Made by a program: the position numbers and the translations under genes. The notes under the pieces are model-generated. The model was not told where the DNA came from. It was given only the letters and a program-made list of their open reading frames with translations, and made no database searches. Below, piece by piece: positions 3,603 through 7,082 of a stretch of 7,190 nucleotides of DNA. Each line of letters begins with the position of its first letter. Position 1 is the first letter of the stretch. This DNA comes from an uncultured Clostridia bacterium (lineage in GTDB: Bacteria; Bacillota_A; Clostridia; Christensenellales; Aristaeellaceae): the NCBI GenBank assembly GCA_945871545.1, contig CAMBWJ010000087.1:1-7190 (forward strand). Direction: 5' to 3'.

Positions 3603-4877
3603 TCAGTTGCCCACCATGATGTTCAGGATCTCCACGTCGGTGGACTTCATGCCGTCGCGGCCCATGCGGCCGATGTTCCGGATGGTCTCCTCGATGTCGC
3701 CACCGGCCAGACCCTCGCCGTCCTGGAAGCACTTGTCCTCCTTGGCCATGCGGTAGGAGAGCAGGCCCGCGCTGACGGCGGAGGCGATCTTCGCCGCGCA
3801 GGAGCTCTTCGCGCCGTCGCAGACGATGCCGCCCACGTTGCACAGCGTGTTGGTGATGGTCATGCAGATCTGGTCGTAGGTGCAGCCGTCCATGTAGGCG
3901 ATGCCGCAGGCGGTGCCGCAGCCCGCGCTGACCGCGCCGCAGAAGGCGGAGAGGTTGCCGATGTGGCGCTTGATATGTACGGAGATCAGGTTTGCCAGCG
4001 CCAGCGCGCGCAGCGTGGTCTCCTCATTCTTGTTCCAGGTCTTTGCGTACTCGCAGATGGGCAGGGTGATGGTCATGCCCTGGTTGCCGCTGCCGGAGTT
4101 GATGACCACCGGCATGCTGCATCCGTTCATGCGCGCGTCGGAGCCCGCGGCAGCGCGTGCGGCGGCGCGGCCCTCCACGTGGTCGCCGTTGATCTCCATC
4201 ATGGTCTTGCCCACCGCAGCGCCGTACTTGCCGGTCAGGCCCTCCTGGGAGATGGCGGTGTTCATGGCGATCTGGCGCTCCAGCATGGGCTTCACGTCCT
4301 CCAGACGCACCTCGTTGGCGAACTCCACGATCTGGCGCACGTTCAGCAGGCTCTTGTCCACCACCACCTCGTCGGAGGCGGCGCGCTCCTCCTCTTTGGA
4401 GAGGAGCACCTGGCCGTTCCTTTCGATGTAGGTGATGTTCGTGTGCTCGTGCTCCACGGTGACCGCAGCGCTGTCCCCGCCCGCGGTGGCCACGATGCGG
4501 ATGTAGAGGTTGTCCTTGCCCTCCACCAGCTGCGCGTCGCAGAAGCCCTCGTGCACCAGCTGGGTGGTGCGGTCGATCTGCTCCTGGGTGGCGTTCTTGA
4601 TGACCTCCAGCTCCAGAGCTGCGTCGCCCGCCACGCAGCCCAGGGTGGCGGCCACGTCGATGCCGCGCTGTCCGCCGGAATTGGGCACGGTCACGCCCTT
4701 GACGTTCTTGATGATGTTGCCGCTGAGGTAGGCGGTGATGTGCTCCGGGAACCTGCCCAGGACATCCCGGGCCTTCGCCGCAGCAAACGCGACGGCGATC
4801 GGTTCGGTGCAGCCCATCGCCGGCACCAGCTCGTGTTTGAGAATTGCGATATAACCCTTGTAAACCTTGCTATCCAT
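3603..4877 (-). CDS. cyuA: Fe-S L-cysteine desulfidase family protein (CyuA/YhaM-like)
   Basis: A 424-residue cytoplasmic protein of the COG3681/UPF0597 family, related to the alpha subunit of Fe-S serine dehydratases. Characterised members split L-cysteine into pyruvate, sulfide and ammonia with a [4Fe-4S] cluster instead of PLP. The N-terminal signature is PAMGCTEPIA (19-28) with Cys23. The C-terminal half has AFCGAVSAGCGTACG (311-325) and VCDGAKSSCA (352-361). Cys23, Cys313 and Cys353 fit the three cluster ligands I recall for the M. jannaschii enzyme (25, 282, 322): the last two are 40 apart in both. VPNSGGQRG (64-72) and SGSGNQG (261-267) are further glycine-rich family blocks. The ATG at 4877 has AAGGGGAG 8 nt upstream and overlaps the end of the GntR gene by 8 bp, implying translational coupling. 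The substrate could be another amino acid, because many relatives are annotated only as serine dehydratase-like. Confidence 0.85.
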   Translation of the reverse strand: MDSKVYKGYIAILKHELVPAMGCTEPIAVAFAAAKARDVLGRFPEHITAYLSGNIIKNVKGVTVPNSGGQRGIDVAATLGCVAGDAALELEVIKNATQEQIDRTTQLVHEGFCDAQLVEGKDNLYIRIVATAGGDSAAVTVEHEHTNITYIERNGQVLLSKEEERAASDEVVVDKSLLNVRQIVEFANEVRLEDVKPMLERQIAMNTAISQEGLTGKYGAAVGKTMMEINGDHVEGRAAARAAAGSDARMNGCSMPVVINSGSGNQGMTITLPICEYAKTWNKNEETTLRALALANLISVHIKRHIGNLSAFCGAVSAGCGTACGIAYMDGCTYDQICMTITNTLCNVGGIVCDGAKSSCAAKIASAVSAGLLSYRMAKEDKCFQDGEGLAGGDIEETIRNIGRMGRDGMKSTDVEILNIMVGN

Positions 4878-5538
4878 TGTTCTGGCTCCCCTTCATAATA
4901 TCTTCCGGCGAAAAGAACGTGCAGATATCCCTGCGCAGCGTTGCCACCGCCTGTTCCTTGTCGCCCTTGCGTATACTGTCCACGATCTTCATGTGATTCA
5001 GCGGAAGCTCCGGCAGTTCGCTCTTCGCCTTGCTGAAGCACAGCTGCTGATAGGCGCGCATGCAGGTCTCCAGCGCCGTTTTCAGGCTGTTGAACAGATA
5101 TTCGTTGCCCGAAAAGGAGATCAGCGTCAGGTGGAAATTTGCCGTGCGGTTCCAGAAATCCTTGGCGTCCCGCATGGAGTGGTAGAGGATCTCACTCTCC
5201 GAGGCGCTCTCCAGATGCCGCAGCTGCACCGGCGTGATCTGATCAAAGCAGCTCTCCAGCGCGCCGCATTCCAGCAGGATCCGGTACTGGAGGATCTCCT
5301 GCACCTCGCGCTCGGTGTAGCGCACGACCATGTAGCCCTGGCGGGGAATGCTGCGCAGCACGCCCTGCGCACACAGCTCCACCAGCGCCTCGCGCACCGG
5401 CGCCTTGGACACATTCAGCTGTTCGGAGAGCTTCTTCTCGCTGAGAACGCTCTCCACGTTGTAGGAACCGTCGATCAGGTTGTGCATCACCGTGGCGTAG
5501 ACCTGCTCCTTCAACGTCGCTCCGTTCAAACTGGTCAT
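4870..5538 (-). CDS. GntR-family transcriptional regulator, FCD (FadR) subfamily
   Basis: A 222-residue DNA-binding regulator. The winged helix-turn-helix spans about 9-73, with LSEKKLSEQLNVSKAPVREAL (32-52) as recognition region and RQGYMVV (66-72) as wing. The all-helical FCD effector domain follows (about 77-212). FCD metal positions are only half kept: His136 (in NFH) and His182 (in NHMKIV) are present, but the usual Asp four residues before the first His is Thr132 and the last His is Asp204. An in-frame TAG three codons upstream means translation cannot start before the ATG at 5538. That ATG has only GGGG 11 nt upstream, so it may depend on coupling to a 27-codon leader ORF ending one base before it. 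A TTG at codon 9 with GGAG is an alternative start. It overlaps the desulfidase gene and diverges from a transporter receptor gene, so these are its likely targets. Confidence 0.9.
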   Translation of the reverse strand: MTSLNGATLKEQVYATVMHNLIDGSYNVESVLSEKKLSEQLNVSKAPVREALVELCAQGVLRSIPRQGYMVVRYTEREVQEILQYRILLECGALESCFDQITPVQLRHLESASESEILYHSMRDAKDFWNRTANFHLTLISFSGNEYLFNSLKTALETCMRAYQQLCFSKAKSELPELPLNHMKIVDSIRKGDKEQAVATLRRDICTFFSPEDIMKGSQNNG

Positions 5539-5542
5539 ATCA
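5532..5542. promoter_or_regulatory. Candidate regulator operator, site A
   Basis: TGGTCATATCA matches 10 of 11 positions of the FadR-subfamily operator TNGTNNNACNA and sits in the near-palindrome ACTGGTCATATCAGT. It covers the start codon of the GntR gene. It is one of three copies of CTGGTCATA in this control region, suggesting autoregulation by roadblock or by hindering translation-coupled elongation. Confidence 0.5.
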
Positions 5543-5623
5543 GTCTAGCCCCATTGCATCGTACTTGAATTCATCCGGCGAAATGGCCGGTATTCCGGCA
5601 TTTTCCGGGAGAATTCTGCTCAT
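5540..5623 (-). CDS. Possible 27-aa leader ORF (or shifted N-terminus) before the regulator
   Basis: An ATG at 5623 opens a 27-codon frame starting MSRILPENAG and ending at a TGA one base before the regulator's ATG. The peptide composition looks protein-like (for example SPDEFKYDAMGLD). GTGGAG lies only two bases before the ATG, and the predicted transcript starts near 5628, so initiation would be almost leaderless. Two readings are possible. It may be a translated leader that couples to the regulator, whose own ribosome site is poor. Alternatively a one-base indel separates a true N-terminal extension from the regulator. It has no cysteine, so simple Cys-codon attenuation is not supported. 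Confidence 0.3.
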   Translation of the reverse strand: MSRILPENAGIPAISPDEFKYDAMGLD

Positions 5624-5634
5624 GACTCCACTTA

Positions 5635-5663
5635 ATATTATTCCATTTTGACGCTTTTGTCAA
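5635..5663 (-). promoter_or_regulatory. Promoter of the GntR-desulfidase operon
   Basis: The minus strand reads a perfect TTGACA (5663-5658), a 17-bp spacer and TAATAT (5640-5635, 4 of 6). The predicted start is near 5628, giving a leader of about 90 nt. The -35 is half of a small dyad, TTGAC-N6-GTCAA (5648-5663), which could also be a protein site. Confidence 0.7.
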
Positions 5664-5689
5664 TGCGTTGTGGGCCGTTCTTCGCAATT

Positions 5690-5700
5690 TAATATGACCA
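5690..5700. promoter_or_regulatory. Candidate regulator operator, site B
   Basis: On the minus strand this is TGGTCATATTA, 9 of 11 to TNGTNNNACNA, within CCCTGGTCATA, an 11-mer shared exactly with site C. It lies between the two divergent promoters, about 27 bp upstream of the minus-strand -35 and 88 bp upstream of the plus-strand -35. Confidence 0.45.
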
Positions 5701-5787
5701 GGGCGGCGGTTTGGACGCAGCCTGTGTTAAATATCCGGGATACATTTTACTTTGCCGCTTTTATTTGCGCGCGCGGCCTTTTTTGCG

Positions 5788-5816
5788 TTGACAGCGGGTA
5801 AACTGCATGCTATAAT
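5788..5816 (+). promoter_or_regulatory. Perfect-consensus promoter of the binding-protein gene
   Basis: TTGACA (5788-5793) and TATAAT (5811-5816) are both perfect and separated by exactly 17 bp. The predicted start is near 5823, leaving a leader of about 140 nt. Such a strong promoter suits an abundant substrate-binding protein and implies that any control acts by repression or after initiation. Confidence 0.9.
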
Positions 5817-5877
5817 ATCTCATAAAGTTCACAATACATATTCAATCGAAGGATCGTCGTCGGAACTGCCGAAACCC

Positions 5878-5888
5878 TGGTCATACCA
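5878..5888. promoter_or_regulatory. Candidate regulator operator, site C
   Basis: TGGTCATACCA is a full match to the FadR-subfamily consensus TNGTNNNACNA, with perfect TGGT/ACCA half-sites. It lies about 55-65 nt inside the predicted transcript of the binding-protein gene, a position suited to blocking elongation. The same bases could form a 4-bp hairpin in RNA, but the matches at sites A and B argue for a DNA site. Confidence 0.55.
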
Positions 5889-5963: not shown

Positions 5964-7082
5964 ATGAAGAAGATTTTTGCAATCGTCCTGACTCTGGCTC
6001 TGATCCTGAGCTGCGGCGCCTTTGCCGAGGGCACCATCAAGATCGCGGTCGCCGGCCCCATGACCGGTGACAACGCGGAGTACGGCATCGGCTTTGCCAA
6101 CGCTGCAAAGCTGATGGCCTCCGAGTGGAATGCCAACGGCGGCGTGACCGTCGGCGACGAGACCTATACCGTTGAGATCGTTGAGTACGACGACAAGTCC
6201 GACTCCGACGAGGCCGCCATCATCGCCGAGAACATCGTTTCCGACGAGGACATCTGGGGCGTCATCGGCCACTTCGCCTCCGGCATCTGCATGGTCGCTG
6301 CTCCGACCTATCAGGACGCCGAGTACGTCAACATCAGCCCCACCTCCTCCCATGCCGACTACTCCGGCATCGGCGATTACATCTTCCGCAACAACACCGT
6401 CATCACCGTTGAGACCCGCACGGGCGCGGAGATGGCCGTGAACGATCTGGGCGGCCAGGCCATCGGCGTGCTGTCCATCGACTCCGAGTGGGGCCAGTCC
6501 GCCGGCAACGCCATGGAAGCCAACATCCAGGACATCGGCGGCAACTTCGTGCTGCGCCAAGAAGTCTCCACCGACGCCGTGGACTTCGCCACTGAGATCG
6601 CCAACTTCAAGGCGGCCGGCTGCGACGTGATCATGGTCGCCGGCATGTACGGCACCCTGGCTCCCTTCGCCGTCGCCTGCAACAACAGCGACTACGACGT
6701 CAAGCTGGTCGGCTGCTCCAACGCCTACACCAACAACCTGATCGAGATCGCCGGCGAGGCCGCCGAGGGCATCTACGCTCCCGTCTCCTTCTTCGCGGGC
6801 AGCACCGACGAGCGCATCCAGGCCTACGTCGCCGCCTACACCGAGGCTTACGGCGCCGCGCCCTCCGCGCTGACCACCCAGGCCTACGACTCCACCGGCA
6901 TCCTGCTGGAGGCCATTGTCCGCGCCGGCAAGCTGGATCGCGAAGCCATCAAGGACGCCATGTACGAGACCGAGTACGACGGCATGTCCGGCTACACCAC
7001 CTTCGACGAGATCGGCGACGCCCAGAAGGTGTTCACCAAGATCATGGTCAAGGACGGCGCTTTCACGCTGGCTGAGTTCTAA
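5964..7082 (+). CDS. ABC transporter substrate-binding protein, branched-chain amino acid (LivJ) type
   Basis: A 372-residue secreted or surface-anchored solute receptor of the type I periplasmic-binding fold (Peripla_BP_6/LivJ family). A signal peptide runs from MKKIF through a hydrophobic core to about residue 21, with AFA|EG (19-23) as a good signal peptidase I site. Cys17 in ILSC only poorly fits a lipobox, so lipid anchoring is possible but less likely. The mature fold starts TIKIAVAGPMTG (24-35), as family members do. GHFASG (102-107) and ISPTSSHADYS (124-134) correspond to the LivJ ligand-loop region, and a second lobe covers about 150-280. AAGGAG (5948-5953) precedes the ATG by 10 nt. 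The ligand cannot be read from sequence. Its divergent placement from a GntR-desulfidase operon with shared motifs suggests an amino acid linked to that enzyme. Permease and ATPase genes are expected just beyond the window. Confidence 0.9.
   Translation: MKKIFAIVLTLALILSCGAFAEGTIKIAVAGPMTGDNAEYGIGFANAAKLMASEWNANGGVTVGDETYTVEIVEYDDKSDSDEAAIIAENIVSDEDIWGVIGHFASGICMVAAPTYQDAEYVNISPTSSHADYSGIGDYIFRNNTVITVETRTGAEMAVNDLGGQAIGVLSIDSEWGQSAGNAMEANIQDIGGNFVLRQEVSTDAVDFATEIANFKAAGCDVIMVAGMYGTLAPFAVACNNSDYDVKLVGCSNAYTNNLIEIAGEAAEGIYAPVSFFAGSTDERIQAYVAAYTEAYGAAPSALTTQAYDSTGILLEAIVRAGKLDREAIKDAMYETEYDGMSGYTTFDEIGDAQKVFTKIMVKDGAFTLAEF

Follow-up and report, generated by a model that had tools for sequence, protein, structure and literature searches.

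Three palindromic repeats as candidate operators of an FCD-GntR regulator beside a CyuA-type cysteine desulfidase gene in an uncultured Clostridia bacterium

Introduction

The FCD domain of FadR-subfamily GntR regulators has six or seven helices, and the operator boxes of this subfamily read TKGT/ACMA (PMC4494728). A VanR-group FCD repressor, Atu1419 of Agrobacterium fabrum, was seen by electron microscopy to loop palindromes that lie 190 bp apart (PMC7797058). For genes that encode CyuA-type L-cysteine desulfidases, the regulators that we found described are of other kinds: E. coli CyuR (also DecR or YbaO) exerts a cysteine-responsive control of the CyuA gene in cyuPA (PMC11408624), and CdsR of the clostridial relative C. 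difficile controls the cysteine desulfidase gene cdsB (PMC5767170). The enzyme from M. maripaludis has a cluster held by Cys287, Cys329 and Cys336 and the catalytic residues Cys23 and Glu25, and its catalytic Cys and Glu are reported as not conserved in serine dehydratases (PMC12647591). A literature search, with subscription journals mostly outside it, did not find a GntR regulator described together with cysteine desulfidase, UPF0597 or cyuA.

Here, we analysed a stretch of 7,190 nucleotides from an uncultured Clostridia bacterium (the window), for which a sequence-only reading had proposed that three near-helically phased copies of a FadR-like operator tie a GntR regulator to both of two divergent transcripts. 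We compared the window with orthologous and more distant loci, with the family of its regulator and with CyuA genes that have no such regulator nearby.

Results

Genes of the window

Besides purA (minus strand) and guaA (plus strand), the window encodes a desulfidase, an FCD-domain regulator and, divergent from the latter, a substrate-binding protein (SBP; Table 1). The start of the desulfidase gene overlaps the stop of the regulator gene, and the two probably form one operon. The window ends after the SBP gene. In L001, a locus nearly identical to the window, the orthologous SBP gene is followed by genes for two BPD_transp_2 branched-chain-type permeases and two ABC ATPases, so that, by way of L001, the binding protein, two permeases and two ATPases of a liv-type (HAAT) importer are all present and the divergent transcript would be a liv-type importer operon. 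The predicted promoter of this transcript is identical in L001 and in a second orthologous locus, L002, and promoters similar to that of the regulator-cyuA transcript are predicted in L001, L002 and a third orthologous locus, L003.

The desulfidase matched the M. maripaludis L-cysteine desulfidase (PDB 9he0) with an E value of 2.4e-22. Its sequence aligns all three cluster cysteines as well as the catalytic Cys and Glu, in an alignment that uses an inferred chain offset of 2 residues. Judged by these residues, the gene is a CyuA-type L-cysteine desulfidase gene. The genome of L001 (G001) contains three CyuA homologues (C66, C196, C68; L174, L175). The regulator-linked one shares the three-site spacer described below, and no operator site was found in about 1 kb upstream of the two other paralogues.

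Table 1. Positions of genes, predicted promoters and candidate operator sites in the window
Feature	Positions	Strand	Details
CyuA-type L-cysteine desulfidase gene	3603..4877	-	424 aa; Pfam SDH_alpha; PDB 9he0
FCD-domain GntR regulator gene	4870..5538	-	222 aa; VanR-like predicted fold; Pfam, AF2, Foldseek
HAAT-type SBP gene, divergent from regulator	5964..7082	+	Peripla_BP_6, 199 bits
Predicted sigma-70 promoter, regulator-cyuA transcript	5635..5663	-	TTGACA-17-TAATAT; 10/12 consensus bases
Predicted sigma-70 promoter, SBP/liv transcript	5788..5816	+	TTGACA-17-TATAAT; extended -10; 12/12 consensus bases
Site A	5531..5543		CTGGTCATATCAG; 11-bp core 5532-5542; centre 5537; spacer 5536-5538 = regulator ATG
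Site B	5690..5700	-	TGGTCATATTA; centre 5695; between promoters
Site C	5878..5888	+	TGGTCATACCA; centre 5883; SBP leader

The regulator and its predicted fold

The regulator scored 53.8 bits against Pfam GntR (cut-off 27) and 62.3 bits against FCD (cut-off 24.3), which identifies it as an FCD-GntR protein. The AlphaFold2 model (mean pLDDT 85.7) consists of a winged helix and a mostly six-helix C-domain, with six confident helices and one of low confidence. VanR-group regulators have a six-helix FCD domain. In the Foldseek search, Lar, McbR, Atu1419, PmiR, TM0439 and AlkR all ranked above FadR; the VanR-labelled Atu1419 and AlkR were at ranks 5 and 29, and the first FadR was at rank 40. The shortness of the protein and its closest structures place the regulator, as modelled, in the VanR group of FCD regulators. 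The sequence-only reading had assigned it to the subfamily that binds FadR-like sites; the GntR/FCD part of this assignment stands, but the predicted fold is nearer to Atu1419 and AlkR than to FadR.

Three residues are nearly constant among the 85 regulators of the clade: Arg66 (85/85), Asp204 (84/85) and Cys56 (81/85). In distant FCD proteins Cys56 occurs in 2/7 and Asp204 in 1/7, and both positions lie outside the patterns with which the family was collected. Cys56 sits at the end of the recognition helix and is a possible thiol or persulfide sensor. Asp204 is placed by alignment at the metal-binding His of Atu1419 and TM0439. From the gene content, our guess is that the effector belongs to the cysteine family or is sulfide.

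Three repeats in the divergent region

As the sequence-only reading had noticed, CTGGTCATA occurs at three places, with exact matches at 5531-5539 (+), 5693-5701 (-) and 5877-5885 (+), all within 355 bp. The only further match with one mismatch in the window is at 3870; at up to one mismatch there are thus 4 matches compared to 0.77 expected, and 0/200 shuffles reach 4. The 11-bp palindromes A, B and C have the coordinates first given for them, and sites B and C do have CCCTGGTCATA in common. Site C was also singled out as a full TNGTNNNACNA match; it is the only one in the window, but since 0.82 such matches are expected there by chance, it means little on its own. Some 9-mer was found three times within 400 bp in 28/200 shuffles of the whole window, compared to 4/2000 shuffles of the 590-bp region. 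Taken alone, the triple repeat is moderately surprising at most and suggestive; it becomes convincing through its conservation in relatives.

Conservation in orthologous loci

On comparison with relatives, the conserved entity is one degenerate palindrome, TRRT-N3-AYYA. The divergent spacers of the window, L001, L002 and L003 alike contain exactly three such sites, and the probability of three or more under Markov resampling is 0.0004, 0.0008, 0.0002 and 0.04, respectively, where L001 comes from nearly the same strain as the window and is not independent evidence and the weaker value for L003 is due to its AT-rich spacer. Site C is kept in the same orientation (TGATCATATTA in L001, TAATCACATCA in L002). 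The window and the near-identical L001 differ at 3/11 positions of this site, and each difference respects the R/Y pattern. The L003 copy of site C falls on a predicted -10 box in the AT-rich spacer. The core of site A is kept at the start codon in all three loci. Loss of the sites next to orthologous regulators had been named beforehand as the finding that would speak against operators; the sites are present beside the regulators of L001, L002 and L003. The proposed tie of the regulator to both divergent transcripts is supported by the layout in the orthologues, in which there is one site per transcript and one between them. Taken together, these comparisons support a role of the repeats as operators for the FCD-GntR regulator next to them. 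A fourth TRRTN3AYYA match in the window, TGATCAGATCA, lies inside the regulator gene at 5235-5245.

The distances between the centres given earlier (158, 188 and 346 bp) and their turn counts are correct for the window, but the near-helical phasing (15.05 and 17.90 turns) is not kept in the orthologues. The spacings are 122, 155 and 277 bp in L002 (11.62, 14.76 and 26.38 turns) and 125, 166 and 291 bp in L003 (11.90, 15.81 and 27.71 turns), so near-whole-turn spacing is found in the window, not in L002 and only in part in L003. Because the spacing differs between orthologues, helical phasing is no evidence for looping and was rejected as such.

The operators had been called FadR-like. Four of the six half-sites in the window do fit TKGT/ACMA (three TGGT and one ACCA; site C fits in both boxes, A and B in one each), but the boxes of the family differ. 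Among 140 family half-sites, the second box letter is G in 77 and A in 63, and the third is A in 120, in a search whose pattern allowed only A or G; the spacer is most often ATT or ATG. Pro47 was considered as the cause of the A in the boxes and dropped, as the correlation published for this subfamily concerns, by our count, the second box letter (PMC4494728).

A start codon inside site A

Site A had been described as lying over the start codon of the regulator, which understated the case: the ATG (5536-5538, minus strand) is exactly the 3-bp spacer of the palindrome, TGAT-ATG-ACCA. The same is true of L001, L002 and L003 (4/4 sequences), where an automatic start-codon check over 94 loci flagged L001 and L002, and L003, whose start is misplaced, was seen by eye. 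A protein whose gene has such a site at its start codon has to begin with Met, then Thr or Ile, then a residue with an A-codon. N-termini of this form were found in 25/30 close homologues and in 1/41 distant homologues. In 17 of the 25 the form begins at the annotated start, and in the other 8, which include P0024 because its annotated-start match is coincidental, it begins at an internal Met. In all eight internal-Met cases the preceding codon encodes Asp, which is GAT in the operator. This pattern supports, but does not prove, a start codon within the operator, and common descent contributes to it. In the scan of the best 80 of 323 related stretches, a site lay no more than 20 bp from where the regulator match begins only in L001, L002 and L003, so the feature belongs to the lineage of the window; the next nearest sites are about 50 bp upstream. 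One short sequence would thus serve translation, the protein and putative repressor binding, and its trace is visible in protein N-termini.

The motif follows the regulator in a wider family

In the family scan, which covered the best 80 of 323 related stretches, the identity of the regulators to the query ranged from 32 to 99%. Two peptide patterns served to find these stretches, and residues 44-52 are fixed in one of them, so that the conservation of Lys45 and Pro47 is partly a product of selection and was not used; L113 is the same place as L003. In 79 loci (L001-L080, with L052 left out for its short flank), the motif was present upstream of the regulator in 40 compared to 8.5 expected, and in 3/79 in the coding control. 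For regulators of less than 33% identity it was found in 1/13 compared to 1.1 expected, which is background. The other 39 of these 79 regulators, again from the best 80 of 323 stretches, have no match, so the motif would seem to be incomplete or other clades to differ. Loci L030 and L036 have a single unusual site, TGATCACACCA, upstream of the regulator. There may be other motif classes in the regulator family.

A CyuA gene lies within 3 kb of the regulator in 48/80 loci (best 80 of 323), and in 9 others the flank is too short to tell. The start of cyuA could be measured in 45 of the 80 loci, and in 36 of these the motif was found upstream of the gene, compared to 5.6 expected. It was present in 22/22 cases in which cyuA shares its spacer with the regulator, in 14/18 with cyuA elsewhere in the locus and in 0/5 with cyuA behind the regulator in one operon, the class in which L001 was placed. 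The background is 46/274, the count upstream of other genes. The strongest control is a set of CyuA homologues of the same order and class with no such regulator in the analysed flanks, mostly 1.5 kb on each side: the motif was found in 8/51 compared to 7.0 expected, which is chance. None of the genomes of this control is among the 5/396 (E<=1e-25) or 7/291 (E<=1e-22) that hold the regulator. In these sequence counts, the motif depends on the presence of the regulator.

Eight further control loci have some FCD match, which in three of them is of only 26-27% identity; a site precedes cyuA in 4/8 compared to 1.0 expected, and one of these four is beside only a 27% match. Two of the loci without a site before cyuA are L115, which has the window's own operon type, and L116, which has a 35% regulator. 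At an identity of at least 50%, the regulator was found only in G001, G102 and G563 in samples of 200, 396, 32 and 291 genomes; matches on plasmids were all below 60% identity and matches in phages were short.

Position of the sites relative to predicted promoters

All transcription start sites (TSSs) used here are predictions. In the window, site A is centred at about +90 from the regulator TSS, site B at about -68 from the regulator TSS and -129 from the SBP TSS, and site C at about +59 from the SBP TSS; none of the three is on a predicted -10 box. Site B is at -70 from the predicted regulator TSS in L002 and at -62 in L003.

Of 34 cyuA promoters in the relatives with both a motif and a promoter call, 24 have a site whose centre is at -11 from the predicted start, the place where a repressor blocks RNA polymerase. 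This position is partly built in, since TGATATTATCA contains an extended -10 box, so that motif calls and promoter calls reinforce one another. The density of extended -10 matches is also higher in these spacers (4.0 compared to 1.3 per kb elsewhere), a contrast that is conservative because many cyuA-upstream spacers were counted among the others. Promoter sequence alone does not readily account for the copies at -23 and +1 or for the outcome of the background and no-regulator controls, and an artefact of this kind was mostly rejected on the family counts and the no-regulator control. Among pairs of sites within 40 bp of each other in the relatives, 11/20 are spaced by exactly 12 bp. Eight loci (L004, L005, L008, L022, L031, L041, L049 and L066) have 2-3 operator copies at an exact 12-bp pitch over the cyuA promoter, which suggests dimers bound side by side.

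Genome-wide search for further targets

A whole-genome scan had been proposed for defining the regulon. With TGGTCATAYCA at up to one mismatch, it gave 26 matches in G001 compared to 34 for the reversed pattern; for TGRTNATAYYAG and its control, the counts were 3 and 1 in G001, 0 and 1 in G102, and 19 and 13 in G563. There is no genome-wide enrichment, and we hence claim no regulon outside the locus. Of the G001 matches of the TGRTNATAYYAG scan, the other two are inside open frames (301 and 183 codons) that continue past the end of the stretch analysed.

Discussion

The reading that we prefer, with a probability of roughly 80%, is that a VanR-like FCD/GntR repressor of a CyuA-linked clade uses sites A, B and C on the regulator-cyuA transcript and on the divergent liv-type importer transcript. 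What the sequences show is a set of conserved sites that depend on the presence of the regulator, together with the gene linkage; from this, we infer the following mechanism. A dimer of the regulator would recognise the palindrome TRRT-N3-AYYA. In many relatives the operator is on the -10 box of cyuA and would repress by occlusion. In the lineage of the window, cyuA would have joined the regulator operon with the liv-type importer divergent from it, and three separated operators would have replaced the compact array: A around the start codon of the regulator, downstream of the regulator-cyuA promoter; C within the leader of the importer transcript (in L003, on its -10 box); and B some 65 bp upstream of the promoter of the regulator. 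As long as inducer is absent, regulator bound at these sites would keep both transcripts blocked, with a roadblock at A and C and with B helping or activating; both would be released by the inducer, for which cysteine or one of its products is the probable candidate.

Looping is the alternative that survives best, although we consider it unlikely. In this version the sites are real operators and a tetrameric regulator loops A, B and C as Atu1419 does. That VanR-group tetramer loops 190 bp, close to the 188 bp between B and C, and one of its sites, a degenerate second one, likewise lies in an ORF (PMC7797058). Atu1419 is also among the best structural matches of the regulator. The phase between B and C is also similar in the three lineages (17.90, 14.76 and 15.81 turns), but that between A and B is not kept (15.05, 11.62 and 11.90 turns), and the close sites in relatives mostly form the compact 12-bp array, for which no loop is needed.

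A slightly less probable alternative is that site A serves for repression of the regulator's own operon and site B for its activation, by which the regulator would induce cyuA together with itself. Activator sites typically lie at about -65, and B keeps to -68, -70 and -62 in the window, L002 and L003 despite the differing distances between A and B; against this, the sites in relatives cover the -10 box of cyuA, a repressor position, and the TSSs from which B is measured are predicted. That chance and promoter sequence produced the pattern, from extended -10 boxes together with a 9-mer that recurs and without a protein that binds all the sites, has in its favour the whole-window shuffles, the extended -10 box within TGATATTATCA and the density of such boxes, but is very improbable in view of the position of A, B and C off the predicted -10 boxes, the motif in every shared spacer compared to the background genes and the CyuA genes without regulator, and the 12-bp arrays.

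The repressor reading suggests, from the genes that the sites accompany, that the regulator controls cysteine breakdown. For many uncultured anaerobes it offers a candidate operator and regulator of this process, which is a source of hydrogen sulfide, and the motif permits the prediction of target genes in other genomes. A wider proposal, which we put forward tentatively and at somewhat less than even odds, is that a so far undescribed VanR-like GntR clade controls cysteine desulfidase in anaerobic Firmicutes and some spirochaetes and would be a third class of CyuA regulator after CyuR and CdsR. It would sense cysteine or sulfide, possibly via Cys56, and in the lineage of the window it would have built a start codon into its operator, with the first codons shared by protein and site, and extended the circuit to a liv-type importer.

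The FadR subfamily resembles the window in combining GntR and FCD domains, in a palindrome with a 3-bp spacer and in divergent operons with separate or paired sites (PMC4494728). Its TKGT/ACMA boxes contrast with TRRT/AYYA in the present clade, where the third letter is mostly A, and the window differs further in having three spread sites, one of which holds a start codon, and the relatives in their 12-bp arrays. Of the CyuA regulators, CyuR is of the Lrp/AsnC type. CyuR recognises another, 23-bp motif and activates cyuPA (PMC11408624), and CdsR is a sigma-54 enhancer-binding activator with PAS, AAA and Fis domains and not a GntR protein (PMC5767170). Atu1419 resembles the window, with a similar predicted fold and several palindromes at divergent promoters, one of them over a -10 box and two sites about 190 bp apart (PMC7797058). 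It differs in its palindrome, ATGTATACAT, in serving a hydroxycinnamate pathway and in its metal ligands, an Asn and three His, at the last of which the alignment places Asp204 of the window regulator. Taken together, these comparisons indicate that the proposed GntR/FCD repressor is of a known kind, and that what would be new, within the literature searched, is CyuA as the attached enzyme.
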